In this document: piece after piece, positions 636 through 7,110 of the stretch
How the letters are laid out: every line of letters begins with the position of its first letter
Position numbering within the stretch: the stretch's first letter is position 1
NCBI GenBank assembly: GCA_001447805.1
Contig: CP013099.1
Coordinates: 1,612,001 to 1,676,000, forward strand
Direction of reading: 5' to 3'
DNA length: 64,000 bases
Source: Candidatus Tenderia electrophaga
Lineage (GTDB): Bacteria > Pseudomonadota > Gammaproteobacteria > Tenderiales > Tenderiaceae
The notes under the pieces: generated by a model
What the model was told of the DNA's origin: nothing
Seen by the model: only the letters and a program-made list of their open reading frames with translations
Database searches by the model: none
Translations under genes and position numbers: made by a program

Positions 636-1436
636 TTATTGGGTGTTCGCTTGCGCAGTGGCGAGTACCGCCTGTGGCGGGCTGATGCAGTCACGATCGG
701 GATCGAGGGCCGAGATCTGCTCCATGGGCATCTGATGTGGCATGTCGTCATGGGCCTCATGATCATGCCGCCCCAAGGGCGTGCCGCGCAGCAGCGTCAC
801 CAGGCCGATGCCGATCAGCAGTATGGCCCCCAGCTTGAGGACCCTGCCGCGCGTGGCCGGGGTGACGCTGCGCAGCAAGGCCGGCGCCGCCAGCATGGCC
901 GGGACCGTGCCCAGGCCGAAGCTGAACATGATCAGGGCGCCCTGCCAACTGGCGGCGGCGCTGAGGCTCAGGCTCAGGCCGGCATAAACCAAGCCGCAGG
1001 GCAGCAGGCCGTTTAACACGCCCACGGTGTACCAAGGTCCGGTATTGTCGTGGCCTGCCGCGACCGGTAGCCAACGGCTCAGGCCGGTGATGTCGGCCAG
1101 CCGTGCGCTGAACCGGGCAAAGGGATCGGGCAGCCAACCGCCGATATGCAGGGCCAGGAGGATAATCACCAGGCCGGCGAAGATGCTGAGCATATGCTGG
1201 ACACTGCCCAGCCCGCCCGCCGCAGTGCCGTGGGCGACCACACCGCCGATGAGGCCGGCCACCAGACCCAGGGCGGTGTAAGTGGTGAGCCGGCCCAGTT
1301 GGTAGCTGATCAGTCCCGGCCACCAGGTCTGGGGGCGGCTCATGCCCATGGCCGCGACCAGGCCGCCGCACATGCCGATGCAGTGCAGACTGCCGAGAAA
1401 GCCGATGGCGAATCCGGCGGCCAAGAGTTCGGTCAT
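636..1436 (-). CDS. TauE/SafE-type membrane protein with His/Met-rich tail
   Basis: A 266-residue polytopic protein with about six membrane segments. The N-terminus carries the motif GSLHCIGMCGG (residues about 15-25), typical of the sulfite-exporter TauE/SafE-like (UreH-type) proteins found beside cco accessory genes in many Proteobacteria. Family members near ccoGHIS are thought to take part in cytochrome oxidase maturation or metal handling, but their substrate is not settled. The C-terminal tail after the last helix has a cluster of His and Met (RHDHEAHDDMPHQMPM), a plausible copper-binding stretch; that is inference. Its ATG overlaps the stop of the upstream gene by 4 bp, so the two are translationally coupled. 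Confidence 0.85.
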   Translation of the reverse strand: MTELLAAGFAIGFLGSLHCIGMCGGLVAAMGMSRPQTWWPGLISYQLGRLTTYTALGLVAGLIGGVVAHGTAAGGLGSVQHMLSIFAGLVIILLALHIGGWLPDPFARFSARLADITGLSRWLPVAAGHDNTGPWYTVGVLNGLLPCGLVYAGLSLSLSAAASWQGALIMFSFGLGTVPAMLAAPALLRSVTPATRGRVLKLGAILLIGIGLVTLLRGTPLGRHDHEAHDDMPHQMPMEQISALDPDRDCISPPQAVLATAQANTQ

Positions 1437-2113
1437 TGACCCCCCGTGATGTCGGACGCCTCGTCCAGCAGGCTCAACAAACGATCGAATTGGTCTGGCG
1501 GCACAAACTGCAGCAAGGGCTTGTCCTGCGGCGGCACCACCACATCCAATCCCAGTCTTGGATAGAGTAGATGCAGGTTGCCGTCGGCGTCACGGCGACG
1601 TTCGCCGGGCTGACCGAACTGCCTTTCGATCAGCGCCGGCGCGAGGGAGATGGGTGGGATATAGGTGAGCGACTTGACGATACTGGCGTCCACGGCGCCC
1701 CGGTGCTCAGGCGCGATCTGCATCTTGATATTGCCCGAGGGGAAGGCCATGGGCCGGTGTGCCTGCGCCTTGATGCGGTCGATGAGCTCGGGGGCGGCGT
1801 CCAGTTCGATCACGATCTTGGCGCGATCGGGTGAGGTGGGGAAGAAGGCCTCCAGGGTCTCCTGGGCACCGGCGGGACGTTCGACCTGCACGAACAGGGC
1901 GCGTTCGCTCTGGCTGTGCAGTGCCGCTTCTGCCTGCTTCAGGGTGGACTGCCCCAGCACGACGCCGAGAACATGGAGCCGGCCCTGGGCGTCCAAGTGA
2001 GCGTTCCACACGCGCATGGACGAAGAGGATTGATCGGCCTCACCCCCCGGCCAGAGGGTGAAGATCGCCAGGCCGATCAAGACCGCAGTCAGCAGCTTCA
2101 GTTTCGTGCTCAT
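1433..2113 (-). CDS. Conserved-looking membrane-anchored protein, function unknown
   Basis: A 226-residue protein with one N-terminal hydrophobic segment (residues 4-22) that could be a signal anchor or an uncleaved signal peptide, followed by a soluble, presumably periplasmic domain. No cysteine pairs, haem motif or known catalytic motif are visible. It sits where ccoH (FixH-like) is often found, between ccoG and a TauE/SafE gene, but its sequence and length do not look like CcoH. A role in assembling or modulating the cbb3 oxidase is suggested by position only. It is coupled by a 4-bp overlap to the TauE/SafE gene, and ccoG ends 37 bp upstream. Confidence 0.7.
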   Translation of the reverse strand: MSTKLKLLTAVLIGLAIFTLWPGGEADQSSSSMRVWNAHLDAQGRLHVLGVVLGQSTLKQAEAALHSQSERALFVQVERPAGAQETLEAFFPTSPDRAKIVIELDAAPELIDRIKAQAHRPMAFPSGNIKMQIAPEHRGAVDASIVKSLTYIPPISLAPALIERQFGQPGERRRDADGNLHLLYPRLGLDVVVPPQDKPLLQFVPPDQFDRLLSLLDEASDITGGQ

Positions 2114-2150: not shown

Positions 2151-3602
2151 TCAACGCGGCGGGCGAATGATCACACTTTCTCGTGTGAACACCCGGTCTG
2201 GATGGTTTATATCCTTTAATACAAAGGTGATGGGTGTATGCTCATGCGGCAGTTGCGCCGGCCTGGCACGGACATCGACATTGAAGGGCACCAGTTTATC
2301 CGCCTTCAGGGTCATGAGCTCATCGATACCGGAGACCTCGAGCCCTTCGACCCCTGCGGTGCTTATGCGCACCTGCATGGCCTGTTCGGTCTTGTTGAGT
2401 ATCTTGAAGGTATAACGGTTTTGCACCGAACCATCGGACATGACCGTGTAGAGCGGTTGACGCTGATGCAGGATGTGCCAATCGATGGGCGCAATATTGG
2501 TCAAGCCATAGAGGATGCCGCCAAAGGCGAACAGCATAATGGCGGCATAGACCAGCACGCGCGGCCGCTTCAAGGGCGATTTGACCACCTCGCCGGCCAT
2601 CTCGCGCAGCGAGGCATAACGGATCAGGCCCTTGTTGCGGCCCACCTTGTCCATGATGCTGTCGCAGGCATCGATACACAGGCCACAGGTGATGCAGCCC
2701 TCCTGCTGACCGTTGCGGATATCCACCCCGGTGGGGCAGACGGCGACACACATGCGGCAATCGATACAATCCCCCAACTCTTTGTTGTCGGCCTTGAGCT
2801 TGCCGCGCGGTTCGCCGCGCTCGACATCGTAGGTGGGCAGGAGGGTGTCCTTGTCGTACATCACGCCTTGGATGCGGGCATAGGGGCAGAGCCAAAAGCA
2901 CACTTGTTCGCGCAGATAGCCGGCCAGAAAATAGGTGCCCAGGGTGAACATCAACAATACGATGTAGGCGATGATATGGGCGTTCAGGGTGAAGACATCG
3001 CGCCATAACTGGAATGCATCGGTGAAGTAGGCCGCGAAGGTCATGCCGGTGAGGACGGCGATCGCCAGCCAGAGACTGTGTTTGAGCAACTTCTTGCGCG
3101 CCTTGACAAGGCTCAGCGGCGCCTTTTCAAGCTTGCGCCGCTGTGCCGGGGGTCCTTCGATCTTTTCTTCAATCAGGGTAAAGACATCGGTCCAGATGGT
3201 CTGGAAGCAGAAATAGCCGCAGAATACCCGTCCCGCGATGGCTGTGACGCCAAACAGGATCATGGCCATCAGGATCAGCACCAGGGAGAGCATCCAGACG
3301 TCCTGAGGATGCACGGTGATGGCGAACAGGTGGAACTGACGATCGGGGATGTCGAACAGGATGGCCTGTTGACCGCCCCAACGCAGATAGGGGCCGATGA
3401 AGAAGATCAACCAAAGACTGGCGCTGAACCATTTGAGTTTGCGGAACCGACCGGGCATACGTTTGGCGTGTATGGTTTCGTCGCCGAGATTGACATGCCA
3501 ATGTACGGTCTCGTCATAGATCTCTTGCACATTGTCTGCACTGATTTGAGGTTTTTGCGCGTCCATAGCCATTGCTGCGTCGTGGTTGAGGTTGGAAGAC
3601 AA
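2151..3602 (-). CDS. ccoG: Cytochrome c oxidase accessory protein CcoG
   Basis: A 483-residue membrane ferredoxin-like protein needed to assemble cbb3 oxidase; the family has been linked to copper reduction for CcoN. It has about five membrane segments. Paired cysteines occur in VFCGYFC (residue about 127) and QVCFWLCP (about 233). Two [4Fe-4S] clusters are indicated by C279-C282-C285-C289 (CIDCRMCVAVCP) and C303-C306-C309-C313 (CITCGLCIDAC). A C-terminal soluble beta domain follows the last helix (about 350-370). Length matches the RdxA/FixG family. It is separated from the ccoP end by about 375 bp holding a small peptide gene and a stem-loop, so it may be transcribed apart from ccoNOQP. Confidence 0.96.
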   Translation of the reverse strand: MSSNLNHDAAMAMDAQKPQISADNVQEIYDETVHWHVNLGDETIHAKRMPGRFRKLKWFSASLWLIFFIGPYLRWGGQQAILFDIPDRQFHLFAITVHPQDVWMLSLVLILMAMILFGVTAIAGRVFCGYFCFQTIWTDVFTLIEEKIEGPPAQRRKLEKAPLSLVKARKKLLKHSLWLAIAVLTGMTFAAYFTDAFQLWRDVFTLNAHIIAYIVLLMFTLGTYFLAGYLREQVCFWLCPYARIQGVMYDKDTLLPTYDVERGEPRGKLKADNKELGDCIDCRMCVAVCPTGVDIRNGQQEGCITCGLCIDACDSIMDKVGRNKGLIRYASLREMAGEVVKSPLKRPRVLVYAAIMLFAFGGILYGLTNIAPIDWHILHQRQPLYTVMSDGSVQNRYTFKILNKTEQAMQVRISTAGVEGLEVSGIDELMTLKADKLVPFNVDVRARPAQLPHEHTPITFVLKDINHPDRVFTRESVIIRPPR

Positions 3603-3744: not shown

Positions 3745-3767
3745 ATTTCGGGGGCGCAAGGCCCCCG
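3745..3767 (-). terminator. Stem-loop after the small peptide gene, possible terminator
   Basis: On the minus strand CGGGGGC pairs with GCCCCCG around a 5-nt loop (3749-3767) and is followed by AAATTTTACC. The short T-run makes it a weak intrinsic terminator or a processing/stabiliser hairpin. It sits 19 bp past the stop of the 38-residue peptide gene and upstream of ccoG, so it could mark the 3' end of the ccoNOQP transcript. Confidence 0.5.
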
Positions 3768-3785: not shown

Positions 3786-3902
3786 CTAATCTTTGTCGTC
3801 CGGTTTTTGATTCATCAAATTGCGCAGCCGAATGGCAAGAAAGACAAAGACGATGACGGCGCCAAGTACTGATAGGATGGAACCGATCACTACGCTATCC
3901 AT
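3786..3902 (-). CDS. Small single-helix membrane peptide of the cbb3 operon (38 aa)
   Basis: An open frame of 38 codons starting at the ATG at 3902 and ending at TAG. It is preceded by a perfect AGGAGG with a 5-nt spacer. The peptide has one membrane helix (residues about 4-24, VVIGSILSVLGAVIVFVFLA) and a basic then acidic tail ending NQKPDDKD. It follows ccoP by about 75 bp on the same strand. Small one-helix subunits accompany cbb3 oxidases (CcoQ, and CcoM described in Pseudomonas stutzeri), and CcoS is another short membrane protein of these clusters, but I cannot assign it to one of them by sequence. It is more likely real than not because of the strong ribosome site, helix and position. 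Confidence 0.7.
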   Translation of the reverse strand: MDSVVIGSILSVLGAVIVFVFLAIRLRNLMNQKPDDKD

Positions 3903-3977
3903 AATGGCCTCCTAAATTGTTTGTCTGGGTGGCGAAAGAGAAAGCCCGCAAGGGCGGGCTCCCAAGTTTGATGACCG

Positions 3978-4832
3978 TTACTGTTGACCGCCACCGAAGG
4001 ACCAGACGCGCACCGTAAGCAGTTTAATATCGTTGTCTGACAAGCGTTCATCGAAGGCGGGCATGACGGCACTGCGGCTGCCTTCCACATCTTCCTGATT
4101 GACACCCTTGCTGATGGTGCGAATCACCTCGTCACGGGAATCGCCGAAACGCCAGACACTGTCGGTCAGATTGGCCGAACCGAAATCGGGCACGCCTTTG
4201 GCATCTTCGCCGTGGCACAGACCGCAACCGCTTTCTTCATACAAAGACCAGCCGGCTTGGGTGGCCTGTCCCTGGGGCAGGGCGATGACAAAGTCGGCCA
4301 ACTGCTCGATCTCGGCCTGACCGAGGTCCGCCTGGAAGGCCGGCATCATACCTTCGCGGCCGTTGGTGATGGTCTCTTTGATGGCGTCCACCGAACCGCC
4401 GTAGAGCCAGTTGTCGTCGCGCAGATTGGGGAAACGCCCTTCCACACCCTGACCGCCGGCACCGTGACAGGCGGAGCAATAGTCACCGAACAAGGCATTG
4501 GTATAGGAGTTGGCGAAGTTGAGCATCTCCTGGTCGGCCAGGATCTGCTCGGCGCTCATAGTTTCCAGCTGATCCATATAGGGCTCGCGGATCTCCTGGT
4601 ACTTGGCCACCGCCTGTTTGTATTCCTTGATGGAGCTCCAGTTCAACAGCCCCTCATTCGGCCCATTGATCAACGGTATAGAGGGGTAAAGGATGAAATA
4701 GACGACACACCAGAGCAGACTCAGGTAAAAACAGATGGTCCACCACTTGGGCGGCGCGTTGGTCAGTTCACGAATGCCGTCCCACTCGTGCCCCGTGTCA
4801 GGCGCTTGGCCTGGATTATTATGATTGCTCAT
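3978..4832 (-). CDS. ccoP: cbb3-type cytochrome c oxidase subunit III (dihaem cytochrome c)
   Basis: A 284-residue membrane-anchored dihaem cytochrome that passes electrons to CcoO/CcoN. There is one N-terminal membrane helix (about 31-52), then two cytochrome c domains with haem-binding sites C119-x2-C122-H123 (CSACH) and C203-x2-C206-H207 (CGLCH). Candidate axial methionines are in MMPAF (about 162) and VMPAF near the C-terminus. This is the short, single-anchor form of CcoP. It starts 3 bp after the ccoQ stop, so it belongs to the ccoNOQP operon. Confidence 0.97.
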   Translation of the reverse strand: MSNHNNPGQAPDTGHEWDGIRELTNAPPKWWTICFYLSLLWCVVYFILYPSIPLINGPNEGLLNWSSIKEYKQAVAKYQEIREPYMDQLETMSAEQILADQEMLNFANSYTNALFGDYCSACHGAGGQGVEGRFPNLRDDNWLYGGSVDAIKETITNGREGMMPAFQADLGQAEIEQLADFVIALPQGQATQAGWSLYEESGCGLCHGEDAKGVPDFGSANLTDSVWRFGDSRDEVIRTISKGVNQEDVEGSRSAVMPAFDERLSDNDIKLLTVRVWSFGGGQQ

Positions 4833-4835
4833 GGC

Positions 4836-5030
4836 TTACTTCTCCCAATGCTCAGAATCTTCTCTCAGGACAAAGTCACGATGCTGCTCCAGCTTAGTCT
4901 TGCTGCTCGGTTTGAATACCAGGTAGTAAAGTCCGATCATGCAGAAAAAGATCGCAACCGTGACGAACAGCCCCCACCAGTCGGTAGCGGTCATCGCCGC
5001 CCAGTCTGTGTGCAAGTAATCGCTAATCAT
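4836..5030 (-). CDS. ccoQ: cbb3-type oxidase small subunit CcoQ/FixQ
   Basis: A 64-residue protein with one membrane helix (about 19-38, including [19 protein letters not shown]) and a charged cytoplasmic tail, the usual shape of CcoQ, which stabilises the oxidase complex. The start at 5030 overlaps the ccoO stop by 4 bp (ATGA), giving translational coupling, and ccoP follows after 3 bp. Longer readings upstream in this frame run through ccoO in another frame and are not credible. Confidence 0.93.
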
Positions 5031-5671
5031 TGTCGGTAATCCTTGCCTTCCTGAAAGTCCACCATCGTGCCCAAGACCTGGAGATAGGCGACCATGGCGT
5101 CCATCTCGGTCTTGCCCTTGACCGCCTGCTCTGCACCGGCAAAGTCCGCGTCTGTATAGGGCACCCCTACCGCCGCCATGGCGCGCAGCTTGGTTTCGGT
5201 CATGGAGGCGTCGATCTTGTTCTCGGCCAACCACGGATAACGCGGCATGACGGACTCGGGCACCAGCGAACGCGGATCCATCAGGTGCTGACGCTGCCAC
5301 TCGTCGGAGTACTTACCGCCGACGCGGGCCAGGTCGGGACCGGTGCGCTTGGAACCCCACTGGAAGGGATGGTCATACTTCGATTCCACCGCCAGGGAGT
5401 AGTGGCCGTAACGCTCCTTTTCGTCGCGGAAGGGGCGAATCATCTGTGAGTGGCACAGGTAACAGCCTTCACGGATGTAGATATCGCGGCCTTCCAGCTC
5501 CAGGGCCGTGTAGGGACGGATGTTGTCCTCCTCTTCCGTCAAATCTTCCATGGTGTTTGGCAGATAATAGAGCGGGACGATCTCCACTACCCCGGCGACC
5601 AGTAGCGTGATGGCCAGTACGCCGGACAACAGCCAAACATTCTTTTCATTTTTCTCTTGAAATGATGACAT
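5027..5671 (-). CDS. ccoO: cbb3-type cytochrome c oxidase subunit II (monohaem cytochrome c)
   Basis: A 214-residue protein with an N-terminal membrane helix (about 13-35) and a periplasmic monohaem domain. The haem site is C70-YL-C73-H74 in [14 protein letters not shown], a signature of CcoO/FixO. It receives electrons from CcoP or soluble cytochromes and passes them to the low-spin haem of CcoN. I chose the ATG at 5671, 14 bp after ccoN, because of a nearby GGAGG and because the open frame upstream only mirrors ccoN. Confidence 0.96.
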
Positions 5672-5685
5672 CGTTTTCTCCTCCC

Positions 5686-7110
5686 TCAAGCTTTGGAGGT
5701 GGCCGTGGCGCCGGCACCTGCAGGTTGACGTAGTGTCATGACGATGTTGTAGAGCATCACGCAGGCACCGAGGAAGAAGATCAATCCGCCCACGGCACGC
5801 AGTACATAGTAGGGATGCATGGCGGCGACCGATTCCACGAAGGTATACATCAGGTTGCCGTAATCGTCGGTGGCGCGCCACATCAGGCCCTGCATGATGC
5901 CCGAGACCCACATGGCGCAGATGTAGATCACGGCACCGATGGTGGACATCCAGAAGTGCAGGCTGACCAGGGAAGTGGAATACAATTCACGGCCCCACAG
6001 ACGCGTAACCATATGATAGATGGCGCCGATGGAGACCATGGCGACCCAACCCAGGGCACCGGAGTGTACGTGGCCAATGGTCCAGTCCGTGTAGTGAGAC
6101 AGGGCGTTGACCGTCTTCAAGGACATGACCGGCCCCTCGAAGGTGGACATGGCGTAGAAGGCCAAAGACACGATCAGGAAACGCAGGACATAGTCTTCAC
6201 GCAGTTTGTGCCAGGCCCCGGACAGGGTCATCATGCCGTTGATGGCGCCCCCCCATGAAGGAATGATCATGGCGATGGAGACCGCGGCACCCAGCGAGCC
6301 GGTCCAGTCGGGCAGGGCGGTGTAATGCAGATGGTGTGCACCCAGCCAGGCATAACCGAACATCAGCGCCCAGAAGTGCAGTACCGACAGCCGATAGGAG
6401 AAGATGGGCAGTTCGGCCTGTTTGGGCACGAAGTAATACATGATGCCGAGAAAGCCGGCGGTCAGAAAGTAACCGACGGCATTGTGCCCCCACCACCACT
6501 GCACCATGGCATCCTGCACGCCCGAATACATGGAGTAGGACTTCATCAAGCTCACCGGAATGGCCATGGAGTTGCCAACATGCAGATAGGTGATCATGAT
6601 CATCATGCCGAGAAAAAACCAGTTAGCCACATAAATATGTGAATTCTTGCGTGTGGCCAGGGTCATGATGAAGTTGAACATGAAGGCCACCCACACCACG
6701 GCGATCAGGATATCGATGGGCCACTCCAGCTCGGCGTACTCCTTGCCCTGGGTCAGCCCCAGGGGCAACGTGATCACTGCCAGGACGATAATCAGATTCC
6801 AGCCCCAGAAGGTGAACCAGGCCATCTTGTCGCTCCATACCCGCACACCGCAGGTGCGTTGCACCACGTAATAGGCCGTGGCCATGAGGACGCTGCCGCC
6901 GAAGGCGAAGATGACGGCATTGGTGTGCAGCGGTCTGAGTCGACCGAAGGTGAGATAGGGATTGTCGAAATTGAGGTCGGGGAATGCCAGTTGGGATGCG
7001 ATAAATGTTCCCACCAGTGTGCCGACGACCAGATAGATGACCGACATGATGGTGAACCATTTCACCACCTCGAAATTATATGTCGGCTGGTCGAGTGTAG
7101 TAGTGGACAT
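5686..7110 (-). CDS. ccoN: cbb3-type cytochrome c oxidase subunit I (catalytic)
   Basis: A 474-residue, about twelve-helix haem-copper oxidase that reduces oxygen to water at high affinity and pumps protons. Haem and copper ligands fit the family: H62 (low-spin haem b), H209 in [11 protein letters not shown] and H259/H260 (CuB), Y253 as the probable cross-linked tyrosine of this subclass, and H347/H349 in TIGHVHSG (high- and low-spin haem). A strong GGAGGT lies 3 nt before the ATG. It is the first gene of ccoNOQP. I did not find a clear FNR/ANR palindrome in the upstream 260 bp. Confidence 0.98.

Follow-up and report, generated by a model that had tools for sequence, protein, structure and literature searches.

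The window analysed here, a 64,000-nucleotide stretch of the Candidatus Tenderia electrophaga genome, carries on its minus strand the genes ccoN, ccoO, ccoQ and ccoP of a cbb3-type oxidase, an enzyme with high affinity for oxygen, followed by a small open reading frame (ORF) and by ccoG, which encodes a cbb3 assembly factor (Table 1). The small ORF starts with ATG, encodes 38 amino acids and reads MDSVVIGSILSVLGAVIVFVFLAIRLRNLMNQKPDDKD. The end of ccoP (3978) is 75 bases upstream of it and ccoG lies downstream, with an alternative TTG start at 3602 in the ORF list. The original prediction had placed a 38-residue frame with an AGGAGG ribosome-binding site between ccoP and ccoG, and had held that CcoQ is encoded separately. 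The frame and the motif were both found, the latter five bases before the ATG. CcoQ has a frame of its own, although its match to FixQ (15.4 bits) is under the cut-off of 29; the small ORF gave no match to FixQ.

Table 1 Features of the cco locus in the window, and orphan copies of the small protein in other genomes
Feature	Position	Strand	Evidence
Putative CcoM-like single-helix small ORF, stop codon included	3786..3902	-	frame, conservation, dN/dS, AlphaFold2
AGGAGG ribosome-binding site, 5 nt 5' of ATG	3908..3913	-	sequence
ccoP (cbb3 subunit III)	3978..4832	-	TIGR00782, 251.7 bits
ccoQ (FixQ-like, sub-threshold)	4836..5030	-	PF05545 E 0.018 and position
ccoO (cbb3 subunit II)	5027..5671	-	PF02433 E 2.2e-83; TIGR00781
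ccoN (cbb3 subunit I)	5686..7110	-	TIGR00780, 697 bits
ccoG (cbb3 assembly factor)	2151..3569	-	TIGR02745, 475 bits
Hairpin of 10 bp in the ccoP–small ORF gap, with a U-rich tail after it	3940..3963	-	fold analysis
7-bp G+C-rich hairpin 3' of the small ORF, where the ccoNOQP-small-ORF transcript may end	3749..3767	-	fold analysis
Orphan small-protein copy	L065:6808-6921		
Orphan small-protein copy	L067:6669-6788	-	
Orphan small-protein copy	L069:6321-6440	-	

Between ccoG and a DsbD_2-type membrane gene, the window also encodes a 226-amino acid protein (1433-2113, minus strand) for which neither a Pfam family nor a credible NCBIfam match was obtained. A homologue with 30% identity is located near the cco cluster of another genome (L066).

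Conservation and synteny of the small ORF

In order to identify homologues of the small ORF, public genomes were scanned with a CcoG alignment and the best 80 of the 521 confirmed loci were taken, a choice by which the sample leans to relatives of the window CcoG. ccoP lies upstream of ccoG in 68 of these best 80 loci. The original prediction had proposed a search for small ORFs after ccoP in related genomes, and had named lack of conservation of the frame or of the ribosome site in relatives as the result that would count against it. Within the same best 80 of 521, the ccoP–ccoG gap holds a homologue in 66 of the 68 named loci; the start is intact in all except L138 (65 of 66). A GGAG, GAGG or AGGA motif precedes 54 of the 65 starts, compared to 41% of shuffled upstream sequences. 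The result that would have counted against the prediction was therefore not obtained. Two loci, L078 and L132, have ccoP upstream of ccoG and no small ORF. The remaining 12 of the 80 ccoG loci, which lack an upstream ccoP on the contig, were left out of this count; in eight of them ccoG starts less than 500 bases from the end of the locus.

The carriers, many of which oxidise sulfur, methyl compounds or iron, belong to the Gammaproteobacteria and Zetaproteobacteria and include Thiocapsa, Thiohalocapsa, Methylophaga, Sedimenticola, Candidatus Thiodiazotropha, Mariprofundus and a Nitrosomonadales assembly. The ORF is intact in both Thiocapsa roseopersicina (L130) and Methylophaga sulfidovorans (L148). 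Its start follows the ccoP stop by a median of 71 bases (range 9–390), the distance being nine bases in several Mariprofundus-type loci.

At wider taxonomic scales the same arrangement was observed. In the order of the window's genome, six of 11 genomes, its own included, carry the small ORF, and the same six have a ccoG above cut-off. A profile built from the 66 sequences matched 43 of 369 genomes of the class at E ≤ 0.01 and 33 at E ≤ 1e-7, while ccoG was matched at 1e-20 in 221 and above cut-off in 191; a comparison of the listings indicates that all 33 genomes are also in the ccoG list. The small ORF is between ccoP and ccoG in 27 of 30 class-level loci. Several of the weaker matches are members, G043 among them. 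G068 and G305 were assigned by position, 15 and 120 bases after ccoP, as was G063, whose first start gives an 11-base overlap with the end of ccoP and is followed by an inner ATG. Three other weak matches are false members (G112, G156 and G099). None of these, followed as matches in long frames, is a fusion of the helix to CcoP: G112 (362 amino acids) reads as a secretion-type membrane protein, G156 (199 amino acids) is unrelated and G099 is a DUF3149 protein. At phylum level, 29 of 378 genomes gave a match with E ≤ 0.001, of which 27 belong to one family (f206). The match is between ccoP and ccoG in 28 of the 29, a count in which one contig-edge case was scored by eye and one non-member control locus was excluded.

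As a specificity control we used 35 ccoG loci that belong to other lineages and that the profile did not match. ccoP is upstream in 31 of the 35, and no gap contains a family member; the top score, 6.2, was that of a DUF3149-like ORF. In a plasmid collection, all 356 records that matched annotated cco operons are below 60% identity, and most are rhizobial.

Some members depart from the common form. In L250 (1530-1901, minus strand) the member between ccoP and ccoG has a long C-terminal extension rich in lysine and arginine. Orphan second copies away from cco genes are found in three genomes (G135, G146 and G353) and have the common motif RITRLMK[ST]CNS. Among the ccoG matches listed across the class, carriers of the small ORF have a ccoG of the lower-scoring TIGR02745 group and not of the highest-scoring one, which includes those of the CcoM-bearing genomes G171 and G372.

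Coding evidence and predicted topology

The pattern of substitution is that of a protein-coding gene. Close homologue pairs mostly have dN/dS values of 0.03–0.18, and 193 homologue pairs differ at 2012, 1183 and 4138 sites on codon positions 1, 2 and 3, respectively. The small ORF is a genuine gene and not a chance frame, because purifying selection has kept the frame, its position and the protein sequence; it is coding, conserved and syntenic, and its product has one predicted helix.

AlphaFold2 folded the window protein as one helix (residues 3–31, mean pLDDT 86), in agreement with the single membrane helix that had been predicted. D2 is invariant in the 66 sequences and V4 occurs in at least 90% of them; together with the helix these are the conserved parts. 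The NQKPDDKD-like tail, which had been suggested as a feature to search for in related genomes, is restricted to close relatives. The C-terminal tail of the window protein is basic, and all 66 members are richer in lysine and arginine after the helix than before it. The tail is thus probably cytoplasmic, and the charge distribution would place the N-terminus in the periplasm.

Flanking hairpins and transcription

Hairpins flank the small ORF on both sides (Table 1). The one between ccoP and the ORF, absent from the original prediction, has modest z scores of −1.09 and −1.57 in two fold computations. The one 3' of the ORF had been proposed as a possible end of the operon. It is present, with a likewise modest z of −2.27 (−0.87 over a longer stretch), but a simple terminator scan of the window called neither hairpin. 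Across the homologous loci, the gap between ccoP and the ORF folds more stably than shuffled sequences (z < −2) in 31 of 55 loci, and that between the ORF and ccoG in 53 of 64. A hairpin with a T-run comes after the small ORF in 22 of 66 loci and before it in four. This pattern of folds and T-runs is consistent with a small ORF that closes the ccoNOQP transcript, with an internal stem-loop. A search for FNR/Anr boxes returned three sites with one mismatch, none near the cco operon, a count not above chance, and a promoter scan gave three matches where 2.6 are expected.

Relation to CcoM

No Pfam or NCBIfam model covers the small-ORF family. We regard as chance membrane-helix matches the two that the window protein had in these collections, Syndecan (E 0.011) and oadG (E 0.17). 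The likely closest relative by profile-profile score is CcoM, a 36-residue subunit of the cbb3-1 oxidase of P. stutzeri (NCBIfam NF041600; PDB 5djq chain N). According to PMC8267372, some of the cbb3 oxidases of Pseudomonas have CcoM as a subunit, and papers citing its discovery report that it stabilises the oxidase.

Aligned with hhalign, the small-ORF and CcoM profiles scored 27.5 (probability 86.8%) over 31 columns, start to start. Reversed profiles scored 11.1 and 12.4. Hydrophobic segments of CcoN, CcoO, CcoP and CcoG reached at most 14.2 in 104 comparisons, and none of 600 column permutations reached 27.5, the maximum being 22.7. The CcoQ profile scored 19.5, in another register. Gammaproteobacterial members alone scored 29.4 against CcoM. 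The group assigned to the Zetaproteobacteria by record title (16 sequences, including one from a Nitrosomonadales assembly and one titled only Proteobacteria) by itself scored 22.0, just within the permutation range. When the 66 members were compared to 18950 NCBIfam models, the top single E-value (2.8e-4) was that of CcoM, matched by the Methylophaga sulfidovorans member with residues 1–31 on model positions 1–31 (21.3 bits). The CcoM model matches only six of the 66 members, as does the small_EYxxD model, and the window protein has no match to it.

The two families are alike in length (36–38 amino acids), in their one helix with the same predicted topology, and in a start-anchored D-x-V-[VA]-[IL]; a basic C-terminal tail is a further CcoM-type trait of the small-ORF family. 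However, the family lacks the W-[KR]-D end of CcoM, and the invariant CcoM columns A9-G10 and F27-x-W29-x-D31 are not matched in its alignment. A profile search of solved structures did not recover the CcoM chain 5djq_N, and PDB searches with the sequence and with the profile returned no oxidase chain. None of the 66 members reaches the curated CcoM cut-off of 40 bits, the best being the 21.3 bits given above, and the small ORF is outside the CcoM equivalog as defined. With a profile score far above the controls, CcoM is probably a remote relative, though the small ORF is not an equivalog; common ancestry is supported but not proven.

The gene location differs as well: the small ORF is between ccoP and ccoG, whereas Pseudomonas ccoM is outside the operon. 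The NCBIfam CcoM model is above cut-off in 43 of 59 Pseudomonadaceae genomes. In 30 ccoM loci from this family, no cco gene lies within 1.5 kb. The small-ORF profile matches 26 of the 59 genomes at E ≤ 1, with the best match (5e-4) in a 651-amino acid frame and weak matches in small frames (G406 and G416).

Comparison with other small oxidase proteins

CcoQ/FixQ (PF05545) is likewise a small one-helix cbb3 component encoded in the same operon, but in the window it is a separate gene. CcoH/FixH (PF05751) gave no match with the small ORF, and the canonical CcoH of this genome (85.9 bits) is encoded at C1:1607426-1607881, about 4 kb to the left of the window. As the CcoQ-like frame and the canonical CcoH are both separate, the small ORF is neither.

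According to sections of PMC8267372, Campylobacter jejuni encodes two one-helix proteins downstream of ccoP, CcoX (DUF4006) and CcoY (33 amino acids); deletion of ccoX abolishes oxidase activity and deletion of ccoY lowers it. They resemble the small ORF in size, helix and position after ccoP, but the genes that come next are ccoZ and ccoH in Campylobacter and ccoG here. DUF4006 was not among the Pfam matches of the window protein, nor was it seen for the 66 members among the 25 families listed of 44. For CcoY the comparison covers size, helix and gene position as described in that source. That such proteins, encoded after ccoP, are described there as needed for cbb3 activity in Campylobacter makes a real role for the small ORF more plausible. 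CydX and CioY (the latter as described in parts of PMC11955535) are also hidden small one-helix subunits encoded beside oxidase genes; however, they belong to bd-type oxidases, another superfamily, and there is no family match.

A putative fifth subunit of the cbb3 oxidase

The small ORF had been suggested to encode an extra single-helix subunit or an assembly factor of the cbb3 oxidase, and the synteny, the ribosome-binding motif and CcoM as best remote match support a protein of this kind. We consider it probable that the small ORF is an inner-membrane protein gene that ends the ccoNOQP operon, and that its product is a distant relative of CcoM, resident in the operon, that stabilises the cbb3 oxidase. 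Its single helix would pack against helices of CcoN and CcoP and so stabilise the complex once assembled, the effect reported for Pseudomonas CcoM; the protein would then be an operon-encoded fifth subunit. From synteny, from co-occurrence with ccoG and from the likeness to CcoM we infer that the protein is physically part of the complex and stabilises it, and by the same analogy it may work like CcoM. The orphan copies away from cco genes count against this reading.

Alternatively, the protein could be a cbb3-specific assembly factor that acts in CcoP/CcoN maturation or together with CcoG and is then released. We regard this as unlikely. In almost every locus the small ORF does adjoin ccoG, an assembly gene, but hairpins, some with the T-runs described above, tend to part it from ccoG and not from ccoP, and the Mariprofundus-type ORFs start only nine nucleotides past the ccoP stop. 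Moreover, a Zetaproteobacterial-type genome (L294:3080-3274; G480) has a weak family member just upstream of ccoN and a divergent ccoG, and thus the small ORF may move together with the structural genes.

Equally improbable in our view is an independent small subunit, unrelated to CcoM and bound at another site, which might for example dock the oxidase to the bc1 complex. Scores below the CcoM cut-off would suit such a subunit, and there are precedents: portions of PMC7876108 describe a Rhodobacter supercomplex in which helices of cytochrome cy and CcoH dock the oxidase to the bc1 complex, and bc1 docking is proposed for Campylobacter CcoXYZ in parts of PMC8267372. Against it stands the similarity to the CcoM profile, which keeps its register from the start codon onwards and exceeds all controls. 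A chance frame, a leader peptide or an attenuator element would agree with the shortness of the frame and the hairpins on both sides, but is very improbable, as the low dN/dS and the substitution pattern contradict it, the position is conserved and orphan copies elsewhere keep the protein sequence.

If the family is CcoM-like, a fifth subunit would be widespread among microaerophilic methylotrophs and oxidisers of sulfur and iron, and would have been missed because most members have fewer than 40 residues. Work on their oxidases, be it structures, heterologous expression or subunit counts, would be incomplete without the small protein. A defined gene beside ccoP also opens the role of the small helix to testing outside Pseudomonas. 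Hidden one-helix oxidase subunits are a known kind of protein; within the reach of our searches, neither this family nor its position in the operon appears to have been described, and a search of open-licence papers found no description of the small ORF.

More tentatively, a fifth-subunit family could be ancestral to the operon in many Gamma- and Zetaproteobacteria, with the CcoM of Pseudomonas as a derived branch whose gene moved out; this history is possible, though we would not favour it at present. Under it, the orphan paralogues would serve as alternative subunits, tuning this oxidase or a different one.

Other small ORFs in the ccoP–ccoG gap

The gap between ccoP and ccoG is occupied by other small ORFs in further lineages. 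A hydrophobic ORF of 85–88 amino acids was observed in two of them (L211 and L229), the one in L211 having no Pfam match. In another lineage (L220) the gap includes a 39-amino acid one-helix ORF that matches DUF3149 with 22.0 bits (cut-off 23.2), and DUF3149 may be linked to the cbb3 oxidase in some bacteria.
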